A stretch of 64,000 nt of DNA from the NCBI RefSeq assembly GCF_036250735.1, contig NZ_CP109430.1, positions 2,046,001 to 2,110,000 of the forward strand. The letters run 5' to 3'. This stretch comes from Streptosporangium sp. NBC_01495. Its GTDB lineage: Bacteria > Actinomycetota > Actinomycetes > Streptosporangiales > Streptosporangiaceae. Of this stretch, positions 45,492 to 49,330 are shown one piece after another. The first letter of the stretch is position 1, and each line of letters opens with the position of its first letter. The notes beneath the pieces are model-generated. The model saw nothing but the letters and a program-made list of their open reading frames with translations. It made no database searches and had not been told where the DNA came from. The translations under genes and the position numbers were made by a program.

Positions 45492-45632
45492 GACCTCGGA
45501 CGGTCCTCCTCGCGGCTCCCGGTGTTCGCGGGCCTCCCGGGGCCGGCGAACACCGGACCGGCGTCGTCTCCGGCGGCGGGCACACCCGTACGTCCTCTCC
45601 CGCGAAGGTCCTGGTGCGAGCAAGGTGAACGG

Positions 45633-46841
45633 TCACGCGGTCAGGCGAGACGCCGAGCGGCGGCTCGCCCCGGAGACGGCCCGCAGGGCGGCCTCCGCCG
45701 CGATCAGGGCGCTGTGCGAGGAGACCTCGCTGAGCAGGCCGGGAGCCGCCACCGCGTCGCCGATCAGCCAGACGCCGTCCCCCCGGTCGACCGCGGGCCG
45801 ATCCCGCCAGGTGGTCCCCGGCAGGTCCAGAGCGCCGGTGCGGCCGTTGCACGTGGCCTCCCGCCGCCAGGTCGTCCGCTCCCGCCAGCCGGGGAGCCCG
45901 AGATCGGCCACCCGTTCCGCCCTGGAGATCGCCTCCGCCTTCGTCTCGCCCGGCCTGACCGGCATCTGCAGCTGGCAGAGGCTGTGCCCGTCCGGGGCGA
46001 GCGAGGGGTCCGGCAGGCTGTACCGCTCCATGAAGCCCCCCTCCTCCAGGTCGGAGACGACGAAGAGGTCGTCGGCGCTCTTGCGGAGGCCGAGGTCGAG
46101 CAGGACGGCCTTCCCGCTCTCCCAGCGCAGCGACTCGTCGCCGAGCAGTCCCCTGGCGGCGTCCAGCGAGGTCGCCACGATCACCGGGGTGTCCTCGGGC
46201 AGGCGGTCCACCCGCGAGCCGGTCTCGATCCGCACGCCCAGGCCGCGCGCGTGGGCGGCCATTCGGTCGATCACCCGTCCCCAGCCGCCGATGACGTAGC
46301 GCGGCGCCGGATACTGCGGCGCGGTCGCCCGCAGCACCCGCTCCCAGACGAACGCCGCCGACAGCCGCCCGGGGTCCGCGTCATAGGTGATCACGCCGAC
46401 CAGCCCGGCGGCGGCCCGCATGCCCTTCTCACCGAAGCGGCGGGTGGCCCAGGTCCCGAAGGTCTCGTCCACCGGTGCCCGCAGGCGCCGCCTGGCGAGT
46501 GCCTTCAGCAGCGACAGGGGCGGCATGCCCGACAGCCGGCCGCCGTGGCGGAACCTGCTCCTGGCGAGCATGCCCGGCGTGAGCCTGGTGTACGGCCGGA
46601 CCAGCCCCCTGGCCGCCAGCCAGCGCCACGGCTCGCCGTCGGAGTAGAAGACGTGGGTGCCGTCGTTGGCGACGTACGGCGCGGCGGTGCTGCGGGCCCG
46701 GCCGCCCGGCTCCCGGTGGGCCTCGTGGAGGGTGACCCGCGCGCCGCCCTCGGCGCACGCGATGGCCGCGGTGAGGCCGGCGAGCCCGCCGCCGACGATG
46801 GTGATGTCGTTGCCGCTGATGTCTCGCGTCTCTCGTGTCAT
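45633..46841 (-). CDS. FAD-dependent oxidoreductase (amine oxidase/phytoene desaturase type)
   Basis: The 402-aa flavoprotein has an N-terminal dinucleotide-binding motif DITIVGGGLAGLTAA (Gly17-Gly22) and ends with GDGVWLIGDAVAAPGLLSEVSSHSAL, the FAD-binding C-terminal motif. The middle contains GGRARSTAAPYVANDGTHVF. The substrate is unknown. It lies directly downstream of the ECF41 sigma gene and has its own ECF41-type promoter, with the start codon 8 nt after the -10, which explains the missing ribosome site. Confidence 0.88.
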   Translation of the reverse strand: MTRETRDISGNDITIVGGGLAGLTAAIACAEGGARVTLHEAHREPGGRARSTAAPYVANDGTHVFYSDGEPWRWLAARGLVRPYTRLTPGMLARSRFRHGGRLSGMPPLSLLKALARRRLRAPVDETFGTWATRRFGEKGMRAAAGLVGVITYDADPGRLSAAFVWERVLRATAPQYPAPRYVIGGWGRVIDRMAAHARGLGVRIETGSRVDRLPEDTPVIVATSLDAARGLLGDESLRWESGKAVLLDLGLRKSADDLFVVSDLEEGGFMERYSLPDPSLAPDGHSLCQLQMPVRPGETKAEAISRAERVADLGLPGWRERTTWRREATCNGRTGALDLPGTTWRDRPAVDRGDGVWLIGDAVAAPGLLSEVSSHSALIAAEAALRAVSGASRRSASRLTA

Positions 46842-46849
46842 GCCCGTAC

Positions 46850-46877
46850 GACGGATCGAAGGACGCCTTTTGTGACA
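46850..46877 (-). promoter_or_regulatory. ECF41-type promoter of the oxidoreductase gene
   Basis: Reading the minus strand: -35 TGTCACA (46877-46871), 17-bp spacer, -10 CGTC (46853-46850), then 8 nt to the ATG at 46841. The ECF41 consensus reported for this sigma group is TGTCACA and CGTC with a spacer of about 16 bp. Confidence 0.8.
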
Positions 46878-46906
46878 TCCCCGCCAGGTTTCTCCGGGCG
46901 GGGAGG

Positions 46907-47791
46907 TCAGAGCCGGGAGAGCTTCTCCGGATTCGCCACCAGGAAGACGGTCCTGATCAGGCCGTCCTCGATGACCAGGGAGAACACCGTGACCGGCCGT
47001 CCCTCCACCGTCACCACCATGGCCGGCCCGCCGTTCACCTCCGCGATCTCCATGTCGAGGCCGGAGACCGGTTCGGCGCCGATGCTCTCCATGAAGGTCC
47101 GCACGCGCTCCCCGGACGCGATCGAGGACAGGAAGCGCGCCACCTTGCCCGCGCCCGTGATGACCCGAAGCGGGGCCTTGGTCTTGCCGCCACCGTCGCT
47201 GACCAGCGACGCGTCCTCGGCGAGCATCGCGGTCAGCGCTCCCAGGTCGCCGCCCACGGCCGCCTCGGCGAACCGCTCGGTGAGCCTGCGCCGCAGCCCC
47301 CGGTCCACCTCGAACCTCGGCCTGCCCTCCTGGACGTGCTCCCTGCCGCGCCGGGCGAGCTGCCGGGTCGCCGCCTCGCTGCGCTCGATCATCTCGCCGA
47401 TCTCCGCGTACGGCATGCCGAACGCCTCCCGCAGCACGAACACCGCGCGCTCCAGCGGGGACAGGGTCTCCAGCACCACGAGCAGCGCCAGCTCCACCGA
47501 GTCGGCCAGTTCGGCCCGCTCGGCCACGTCCGGGGTGACGATCAGCTCCGGCAGCCACGACCCGACGTAGGCCTCACGCTGGGCCTTCACCCGCCGCAGC
47601 CGGTCGACGGAGAGCCGCGTCACCACCTTGACCAGGTATGCCCGGTCGTCCTCCACCCGGGAGAGGTCGACACCCGACCAGCGCAGCCACGCCTCCTGGA
47701 CGACGTCCTCGGCGTCGGTCACGCTGCCCAGGATCCGGTAGGCGACCCCGGTCAGCAGGTCGCGATGCTCCTCGAAACGCTCAACGGCCAT
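46907..47791 (-). CDS. ECF41-family sigma factor with fused SnoaL-like regulatory domain
   Basis: The 294-aa product has sigma region 2 (about residues 5-70), region 4 (about 100-155) and a C-terminal SnoaL-like domain. ECF41 hallmarks are present: WLPE in the linker (79-82), DGGGK (199-203) and the terminal NPEKL (287-291). In this group the C-terminal extension replaces an anti-sigma factor. The start at 47791 is supported by a matching promoter 8 nt upstream. It is followed by the flavin oxidoreductase, consistent with the oxidoreductase partners known for ECF41. Confidence 0.94.
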   Translation of the reverse strand: MAVERFEEHRDLLTGVAYRILGSVTDAEDVVQEAWLRWSGVDLSRVEDDRAYLVKVVTRLSVDRLRRVKAQREAYVGSWLPELIVTPDVAERAELADSVELALLVVLETLSPLERAVFVLREAFGMPYAEIGEMIERSEAATRQLARRGREHVQEGRPRFEVDRGLRRRLTERFAEAAVGGDLGALTAMLAEDASLVSDGGGKTKAPLRVITGAGKVARFLSSIASGERVRTFMESIGAEPVSGLDMEIAEVNGGPAMVVTVEGRPVTVFSLVIEDGLIRTVFLVANPEKLSRL

Positions 47792-47799
47792 AGGGATTA

Positions 47800-47826
47800 G
47801 ACATATCACGGGGCCCAGATGTGACA
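47800..47826 (-). promoter_or_regulatory. ECF41-type autoregulatory promoter of the sigma gene
   Basis: On the minus strand: -35 TGTCACA (47826-47820), 16-bp spacer, -10 TGTC (47803-47800), then 8 nt to the ATG at 47791. The geometry is the same as at the oxidoreductase gene. Confidence 0.7.
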
Positions 47827-47833
47827 TGACCTG

Positions 47834-47849
47834 GTAAACGACTGTTTAC
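47834..47849. promoter_or_regulatory. Operator-like dyad GTAAAC-GACT-GTTTAC
   Basis: A perfect 6-4-6 inverted repeat lies 14 nt before the MFS start codon. This architecture is typical of TetR-family operators controlling efflux genes. No adjacent repressor gene exists, so the regulator would act from elsewhere. Confidence 0.65.
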
Positions 47850-47863
47850 AGTGATCCTCTACC

Positions 47864-49330
47864 ATGCGAGGGCGGAAGTCGACAGTGAGGGAGCGGGCAG
47901 TGACGGGAACGATCCTCGCCGAACCGGGCGCCAGGCGGCAGGGCAGACATCTCTGGCTGACCCTGGTGGCGCTCTCCATGGCCGGGATGGTCGCGTCCGT
48001 CCAGCAGACCGTGGTCATCCCGCTGCTGCCCCGGCTGATGGTCACCTTCGGTGTGTCGGTGGCCGAGGTCACCTGGGTCTTCACCGCCTCGCTGCTCGCC
48101 GCCGCGGTGGCCACGCCGCTGCTGTCGCGCCTCGGCGACATGTACGGCAAGAAGCGGATGATCCTGTTCACCGTCGGCCTGCTCGTCCTGGGTTCGGTGG
48201 TCTGCGCCCTGTCCGACACCCTCCCCGTGCTGATCGCCGGACGGGCCCTGCAGGGCGCGTCGTCCGCGCTCATCCCGCTGGCCATCGGCATGATCAAGGA
48301 CAGCTTCCCGCCCGCCAGGGTCATGACGGCCATCGGGGTGGTCAGCGCCACCATGGGCGTCGGCGGCAGCCTCGGCATGATCGTCACCGGCCTGATCGCC
48401 GACCGCACCCCCAGCCACCACCCGGTCTTCTGGATCACCGCGGGACTCGGTGTGGCCGCGGTCGTCCTCATCGCGCTCAGCGTCCACGACAGCGGGGTCG
48501 GCGCCGGGGGCCGCCCCGACCTCGTCGGTGCGGCGCTGCTGTCCGTCTGGCTCGTCTGCCTGCTGCTGGCGATCTCCAAGGGCAACGACTGGGGCTGGGG
48601 CTCGGGAATCGTCGTCGGACTGTTCGCGGGCGCGGCCGTGTTCTGCGCCGCGTGGGTCTTCAGCCAGATGAGGCTCCGGGCGCCGATGATACGGCTGCAC
48701 CTGCTCGTCGGCCGCCGGTCCCTGCCGGCCAACCTGGCCTCGATGCTCCTGGGCTTCGCCATGTTCGGCTCCTTCACCCTGATCTCCAGCTTCATCCAGA
48801 CGCCCTCGTCCGCCGGGTACGGCTTCGGCGGATCGGTCCTCGACGTCGGCGTCTACGCCCTGCCCAGCGCCGTGACCATGCTGCTCTCCTCCTTCATGGC
48901 GGGCCGCCTCTCCAGTCGGCTCGGCCCCGCCTACTCCCTCGCCCTTGGCGCGGGCCTGTGCGCGGCGGGATTCGGCTGGTTCACCTTCTTCAACGACTCG
49001 GTGCTCCATCTGGTCGGTTCCAACGCCGTACAGGGTCTGGGGTTCGGCATCGGCTTCGCCGCGCTGGGGGCGCTCGCCGTGCAGCACGTGCCGGTGGACC
49101 AGAGCGGCATCGCCAGCGGCATCAACTCCCTGGTCCGCTCGATCGGCGGCAGCGTCTCCGGCGCCGCGACCTCCGCCCTCCTCACCTCGATCACCATCGC
49201 CGGAACCTCCGTACCCTCCCGCGACGCGTACGTGATCTCCTTCGGGATCATCACCGCGAGCGCCGTGGGCTCCGCGGCCGTCGCGCTGGCGACCGGAATG
49301 AGGGCGCGAGGACTGTCCCGAATCGGTTAG
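47864..49330 (+). CDS. MFS drug-efflux-type transporter (DHA2-like, 14 helices)
   Basis: The 488-aa product begins with a cytosolic basic stretch, then shows about 14 hydrophobic segments. The DHA signatures RLGDMYGKKRMIL (motif A) and GRALQGASSALIPLAIGM (motif C-like) are present. Family members export drugs or secondary metabolites by proton antiport. Only about 70 bp separate it from the divergent ECF41 gene. The dyad in front suggests repressor control. Confidence 0.87.
   Translation: MRGRKSTVRERAVTGTILAEPGARRQGRHLWLTLVALSMAGMVASVQQTVVIPLLPRLMVTFGVSVAEVTWVFTASLLAAAVATPLLSRLGDMYGKKRMILFTVGLLVLGSVVCALSDTLPVLIAGRALQGASSALIPLAIGMIKDSFPPARVMTAIGVVSATMGVGGSLGMIVTGLIADRTPSHHPVFWITAGLGVAAVVLIALSVHDSGVGAGGRPDLVGAALLSVWLVCLLLAISKGNDWGWGSGIVVGLFAGAAVFCAAWVFSQMRLRAPMIRLHLLVGRRSLPANLASMLLGFAMFGSFTLISSFIQTPSSAGYGFGGSVLDVGVYALPSAVTMLLSSFMAGRLSSRLGPAYSLALGAGLCAAGFGWFTFFNDSVLHLVGSNAVQGLGFGIGFAALGALAVQHVPVDQSGIASGINSLVRSIGGSVSGAATSALLTSITIAGTSVPSRDAYVISFGIITASAVGSAAVALATGMRARGLSRIG

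Follow-up and report, generated by a model that had tools for sequence, protein, structure and literature searches.

ECF41 sigma factors and their promoters

The described sigma factors of the ECF41 group, Ecf41Bli, Ecf41Rsp and RpoE9 of S. meliloti, combine sigma2 and sigma4 with a C-terminal extension of about 100 aa and share the WLPE and DGGG/NPxKL signatures, the linker hallmark being published in full as WLPEP (PMC3426412). The group has promoters of the form TGTCACA-N16±1-CGTC before the sigma gene and a neighboring oxidoreductase gene; for the sigma-then-target order Wecke et al. (2012) count 53 loci, a promoter preceding the sigma gene in 14 and the target gene in 24 (PMC3426412). The recognition of TGTCACA/CGTC and the habitual oxidoreductase neighbor, which an earlier note on the DNA described here took as established, are therefore matters of published record. 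In Bacillus and Rhodobacter, RACE mapping of the ECF41 promoters gave leaders of 22 and 23 nt with a ribosome-binding site, and Table 5 of the same paper gives 31 and 32 for these two genes (PMC3426412). We read the difference of 9 nt as the distance from the -10 to +1, although the table legend does not say so. In S. meliloti, transcription has been mapped to a start 9 nt downstream of the RpoE9 motif TGTCACA-N16-CGTC (PMC3616915).

Leaderless genes account for a mean of 19.2% over 86 actinobacterial genomes, with transcription beginning at or beside the first codon, as in the geometry described below (Zheng et al. 2011, PMC3160421). The signals on which that survey relies are TA-like (sigma70) and lie about 10 bp upstream, unlike the ECF -10 boxes of the present locus; boxes such as CGTC were, by our own reasoning, probably missed by it. 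It does list an ECF sigma gene, S. coelicolor sigJ, whose transcript is documented as leaderless and which differs in being described as under another sigma factor, SigH. In the open literature searched, from listings and passages, we found no published link between ECF41 and leaderless mRNA: the elements are known, and what the searchable texts did not yield is their combination in a constant leaderless layout that recurs with different kinds of target and in different phyla.

The locus from Streptosporangium sp. NBC_01495 has the domain layout, promoter motifs and gene order of the group. It departs from the RACE-mapped cases in that the -10 lies 8 nt from both start codons, and from the published consensus in a WLPEL rather than WLPEP linker and in a sigma -10 of TGTC rather than CGTC.

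The sigma factor and its oxidoreductase neighbor

In the window (the whole 64,000-nt stretch of DNA that was analyzed), the sigma gene (47791-46907) is followed on the minus strand, after a gap of 65 nt, by the oxidoreductase gene (46841-45633; Table 1).

Table 1. Features of the ECF41 locus in window coordinates
Feature	Position	Strand	Basis or remark
ECF41/SigJ-type sigma factor gene, 294 aa	46907..47791	-	TIGR02957, PDB SigJ 5xe7, structure model and Foldseek
FAD-dependent oxidoreductase gene, 402 aa	45633..46841	-	Pfam domains, weak PDB profile matches
Sigma promoter -35, TGTCACA	47820..47826	-	read from sequence
Sigma promoter -10, TGTC	47800..47803	-	CGTC in most relatives
Segment from -10 to sigma start codon, 8 nt	47792..47799	-	predicted transcription start, A of ATG (47791)
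Oxidoreductase promoter -35, TGTCACA	46871..46877	-	sequence and relatives
Oxidoreductase promoter -10, CGTC	46850..46853	-	sequence and relatives
Segment from -10 to oxidoreductase ATG, 8 nt	46842..46849	-	predicted transcription start, A of ATG (46841)
DHA2-type MFS efflux gene	from 47864	+	divergent to sigma gene

The sigma protein is laid out as sigma2, a WLPEL linker, sigma4 and a SnoaL-like C-terminal extension that holds both DGGGK and NPEKL. Sigma70_r2 and Sigma70_r4_2 are above the Pfam cut-off, and the protein passes the cut-offs of the SigX4/SigJ family models TIGR02957 (323.8 bits against 323.25) and NF007214 (308.5 bits against 271), as well as that of PRK09636. Among solved structures, Mycobacterium tuberculosis SigJ (PDB 5xe7) is the nearest across the full length, matching residues 1-291 with E 3.7e-47. 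A structure model built on a 34-sequence alignment (mean pLDDT 84.6, pTM 0.54) recovers the same SigJ entry first in Foldseek (E 5.9e-15), with SnoaL/NTF2-like folds lower in the list; the structural alignment has 33-34% identity and a whole-chain TM-score of only about 0.4, with a different arrangement of the domains in the model. Pfam SnoaL gave no match in the C-terminal extension at 1e-3. The adjoining FAD oxidoreductase is of the neighbor class by which ECF41 genes are recognized (carboxymuconolactone decarboxylase, oxidoreductase or epimerase, COE), and no anti-sigma domain was detected by Pfam in the three neighboring proteins scanned. With the TIGR02957 score, the SigJ match, the model and Foldseek in agreement, the assignment to ECF41 made in the earlier note is firm. 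Its further statement that all hallmarks are present holds for WLPE, DGGGK and NPEKL as it gives them. At the end of the linker, WLPEL retains four of the five residues of WLPEP: the last is P in the other 33 of the 34 aligned sequences, and WLPEL recurs in L051, L061 and L062.

The oxidoreductase matches the Pfam families NAD_binding_8, DAO, Amino_oxidase and FAD_binding_2, of which Amino_oxidase and FAD_binding_2 both figure in the neighbor list of Wecke et al. Its PDB profile matches are weak and mostly N-terminal (for example protoporphyrinogen oxidase 2ivd, E 2.3e-6). From these domains the protein is predicted to be a flavoenzyme of the amine-oxidase/phytoene-desaturase/protoporphyrinogen-oxidase superfamily, and profile searches of Pfam, family models and PDB yield no closer assignment. 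Of 100 family genomes, counting that of the window, 34 have a match at E <= 1e-60.

On the other side of the sigma gene, a perfect palindrome, GTAAACGACTGTTTAC (47834-47849), lies in the interval from the sigma -35 to the divergent efflux gene. It looks like a TetR-type operator, and it was not found before the other sigma genes of the 17-locus orthologue comparison.

Two promoters at the same distance from their start codons

Read on the minus strand, the oxidoreductase promoter is TGTCACAAAAGGCGTCCTTCGATCCGTC (46877..46850), followed by GTACGGGC and the ATG at 46841, and the sigma promoter is TGTCACATCTGGGCCCCGTGATATGTC (47826..47800), followed by TAATCCCT and the ATG at 47791. Rereading the sequence together with a pattern search confirms what had been claimed of them: TGTCACA-N17-CGTC before the oxidoreductase, TGTCACA-N16-TGTC before the sigma gene, and exactly 8 nt from the -10 to the ATG in both. 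The sigma -10 is one letter away from the consensus CGTC; it forms the end of an extended GTGATA[CT]GTC (47800-47809) common to several orthologues. The window has two matches to TGTCACA-N14-18-YGTC; shuffled versions average 0.23, and at least two turn up in 3 of 100 shuffles. Hence, the window motifs by themselves are only mildly beyond chance in 64 kb, and the case for the promoters is carried by their conservation in relatives and by the class-wide excess of the 8-nt spacing. The gap of 8 nt, taken with the distance of about 9 nt from motif to start, would place +1 on the A of the AUG to within 1 nt. Thus, on the strength of the conserved gap and the S. meliloti distance, the sigma and oxidoreductase mRNAs are both predicted to be leaderless.

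The program-called sigma ORF opens further upstream, at an ATG (47827) inside the promoter. Being in frame with the sigma gene, this codon could in principle start the protein on a longer transcript from some other promoter, which would make the motifs fortuitous. The motifs are conserved, however, and the frame upstream of them is not: it is lost in several orthologues, and in four (L051, L054, L061 and L062) the open frame offers no start codon other than that 8-9 nt past the -10. Moreover, there is no further in-frame ATG, GTG or TTG ahead of the sigma2 region, and a search of 45600-48000 found no sigma70-like promoter or intrinsic terminator. We accordingly reject ATG 47827 as the sigma start and regard the account built on it as very improbable.

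Conservation of the distance among relatives

Thirty of the 34 loci with a matching oxidoreductase were fetched and counted as ECF41-linked where the linker hallmark WLPE lies upstream. The oxidoreductase start follows TGTCAC[AG]-N16/17-CGTC by 8 or 9 nt in 16 of the 18 linked loci, window included, and in none of the 12 unlinked ones. The two linked exceptions are L052, which is without the motif, and L075, where the first in-frame start is at 51. Among the unlinked loci, L064, L072 and L074 have the motif at a longer distance from the start, and L076 is a partial match whose upstream region was not resolved. Read by eye, four others (L066, L067, L070 and L079) have TGTCACA and, about 19-20 nt on, C[CGT]TA with a run rich in G in place of CGTC; a like layout precedes the ECF41 paralogue L008 of the window's own genome. 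This TGTCACA/C[CGT]TA layout is possibly another promoter type.

The geometry is conserved at the sigma promoters too. Among 21 loci tried, 17 have a readable N-terminus (window included), and in all 17 the start codon, ATG in 16 and GTG in one, lies 8 or 9 nt past the -10. The motif is exact in 15 and a one-letter variant in two (L056 and L061), the -35 being TGTCAC[AG] in 16 and CGTCACA in L061. The intervening segment has a mean identity of only about 36% (16 of the 17 segments, L061 left out), so its length is kept as its sequence drifts. These orthologous loci share ancestry, and their counts are therefore not independent. The "same geometry" of the earlier note is accordingly exact for the two window promoters, at 8 nt each, and loosens to 8 or 9 nt in the relatives.

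With both genes on the same strand, 65 nt apart and with no intrinsic terminator found between them, read-through from the sigma gene into the oxidoreductase is possible. The main product could then be a single transcript from the sigma promoter to which the second promoter merely adds, and in many orthologues the oxidoreductase -35 indeed lies inside or just beyond the sigma coding end. We nevertheless think an operon of this kind rather unlikely, given that the oxidoreductase keeps its own promoter at 8/9 nt in nearly all linked loci and would be without a clear Shine-Dalgarno site on a transcript from the sigma promoter; in the window genome, a G+C hairpin of 7 bp, lacking a T tract, also stands just 5' of the oxidoreductase -35. 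That hairpin, CCCCGCC/GGCGGGG (46879-46903), is not a conserved insulator, since the window copy has it and the other compared loci do not.

The placement of the second -35 varies. It lies inside the last sigma codons in L056, L057, L061-L063, L073, L078 and L081, directly 3' of the conserved NPEK/NPDK codons, with TGTCAC falling in codons for Met or Leu, then Ser, then His or Arg; in the window it is 29 nt beyond the sigma stop.

An excess of the 8-nt distance across the class

Across 394 genomes of the class, the pattern TGTCACA-N16/17-CGTC-N8-ATG has 50 matches in 43 genomes, and its reversed counterpart has three. Control distances of N11-14 in the same genomes give 38 matches over four offsets, or 9.5 per offset (reversed pattern 10), and a few of the 38 look like ECF41 promoters too. 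The Poisson probability of at least 50 matches given 9.5 is 2e-20, kinship among the genomes being ignored. An earlier sample, comprising 148 distinct sequences among the matches listed and leaving out at least two nested matches, had 8 nt as the most frequent TGTCACA spacing among 13 offsets (13 of 49 among the matches listed). With the variant TGTCACG, which many relatives of the window have, sites at 8-9 nt are not enriched (17 of 99, again among the matches listed). By eye, many sites of the 394-genome search read CGTC-N3/4-GG(G)Y-ATG.

For 20 of the 35 distinct 8-nt sites examined, the flanking sequence retrieved includes an ECF41 gene; the other 15 have none in the flank taken, and several of these are CMD-like genes of the same family. 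The genes behind the 8-nt sites encode ECF41 sigma factors and CMD-like, NAD(P)-binding NmrA-like, SDR, DoxX-like and DnaJ-like proteins, the last below cut-off; a CMD-like representative scores 20.3 bits against PF02627, under the cut-off of 23. The stop codons of the NmrA-like genes overlap the start of a downstream ECF41 gene. A small protein family of one genus (L197, L199, L200 and L212), of which L197 matches DnaJ weakly, has an exact 8-nt ECF41 promoter and no ECF41 gene in the fetched flank, and is a candidate for an unlinked ECF41 target.

Leader lengths and the gammaproteobacteria

A genome contig search of both strands at 80 loci returned 57 TGTCAC[AG]-N16/17-YGTC sites: 35 have a leadered start only, eight an 8/9-nt start only, three both and 11 neither. 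In the 35, by a loose test, the first start with a Shine-Dalgarno-like site is at 24-55 nt. Overall, leaderless sites are thus in the minority. They are frequent among promoters borne by the sigma gene itself: of 127 sigma genes, 45 have the 8/9-nt distance, eight a longer one and 74 no such promoter within 260 nt. Leadered sigma promoters include those of L089, L092, L133, L248 and L254, among others, and ECF41 promoters seem to fall into two lengths, 8-9 nt or about 24-55 nt. On a quick tree of these sigma genes (127 of 144 loci), promoter geometry undergoes at least 10 state changes, in a sample that includes five loci chosen for their 8-nt gap (L191, L198, L207, L211 and L214) and both L134 and its duplicate L243, and that counts the ambiguous GTG cases L115, L124, L261 and L265 as leaderless.

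The same contig search found the 8/9-nt geometry in Pseudoxanthomonas (L134) and Stenotrophomonas (L156). In the Lysobacteraceae (NCBI), the family of the L134 genome, matches occur in 29 of 79 genomes, at 30 loci. Of the loci with at least 60% identity (L243-L260, the query's own counted), 16 of 18 have the start at 8/9 nt and two (L248 and L254) are leadered; the more distant loci are mostly without the geometry. A first script assigned the 8/9-nt geometry to 13 loci, including L261 and L265, which have GTG and fall outside the closer group. Five of the 16 (L245, L246, L249, L251 and L252) were added by eye, and a wider script then found all five. A second motif lies 3' of the sigma gene in five of six Lysobacteraceae loci tried, with no ATG at 8-9 nt. 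The occurrence in this family fits the report of the survey cited above that leaderless genes of the gamma-proteobacteria lie mostly in Xanthomonadales and Legionellales (PMC3160421). Taken together, the family loci, the class-wide excess and the gammaproteobacterial loci are strong comparative evidence for the leaderless geometry, from which the mRNA ends themselves are predicted.

A joint reading of these distributions is that leader length, with promoters of two discrete kinds, would be a built-in second layer of control in ECF41 regulons of at least two phyla. The autoregulated sigma gene would usually be leaderless and many targets leadered, such that the leaderless feedback loop could work when Shine-Dalgarno-dependent initiation is impaired. 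We offer this tentatively, and consider it unlikely to hold as a whole.

Extent of the regulon

The genome of the window has 12 full-length TIGR02957 matches above 200 bits, six of them above the curated cut-off, and 11 of the 12 have DGGG, the window's included. The pattern TGTCACA-N15-18-YGTC occurs 22 times in it against nine for the reversed pattern. One site stands 8 nt from the GTG of another ECF41 gene (L007/L035). Others lie 40 nt ahead of a CMD gene, itself upstream of the ECF41 gene L001; 35 nt ahead of an SDR gene, itself downstream of the ECF41 gene L002; and 52 nt ahead of an NmrA-like gene that no ECF41 gene adjoins. The CMD, SDR and NmrA-like sites suggest that leadered and leaderless ECF41 promoters coexist in one genome. 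A search of this genome at 8/9 nt gives six matches against one for the reversed pattern; three precede the sigma and oxidoreductase genes named here and the other three may be chance.

The "self-contained" regulon of the earlier note is not supported by these counts, and we reject the view that the window pair is the genome's only ECF41 circuit. With so many ECF41-like genes and additional consensus promoters, cross-talk and further targets are possible. It is quite conceivable, though we lean somewhat against it, that several of the 12 sigma factors read the same TGTCACA/YGTC promoters and that the locus is one node of a network, as the paralogues and the promoters before another ECF41 gene and the CMD, SDR and NmrA-like genes would allow. 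Some features hint instead at private specificity: the spacer is N17 in 5 of 5 8-nt promoters of the window's family against 3 of the 45 from other families (Fisher p 2.6e-5, the five being related), and the extended GTGATACGTC is common to several orthologous sigma promoters. Wecke et al. found only the neighboring gene as target in two species (PMC3426412). Autoregulation with an adjacent target, the core of the earlier prediction, is a likely circuit in view of the motifs and the published ECF41 loci.

A probable leaderless ECF41 switch and its meaning

We consider it probable that the locus is an ECF41 switch combining autoregulation with an oxidoreductase output, with both mRNAs leaderless. 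The fused SnoaL-like C-terminal domain would keep the sigma factor in check until a signal relieves it; the freed sigma factor would recognize TGTCACA-N16/17-YGTC before its own gene and that of the FAD oxidoreductase, giving positive feedback and one local output. With 8 nt between each -10 and its ATG, and with ECF41 RNA polymerase initiating about 9 nt past the motif, both mRNAs would begin at the A of the AUG or within about 1 nt of it, and would be translated without a Shine-Dalgarno sequence. The model joins the family membership, motifs, conserved distance and class-wide excess observed here to motif recognition, start distance and C-terminal control, which would carry over from published relatives. 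Use of the promoters in the host, and by this sigma factor rather than by a paralogue, is what we would expect from the arrangement.

ECF41 is a widespread sigma group, and the leaderless geometry would fix the start codons of its genes. The 8-nt spacing also makes a selective search pattern for putative ECF41 targets, such as CMD-like, NmrA-like, SDR, DoxX-like and sigma genes. It widens a picture that has been drawn from two RACE-mapped, leadered promoters, and it raises the testable question of whether it is by design that such regulators run their own feedback through leaderless mRNAs.
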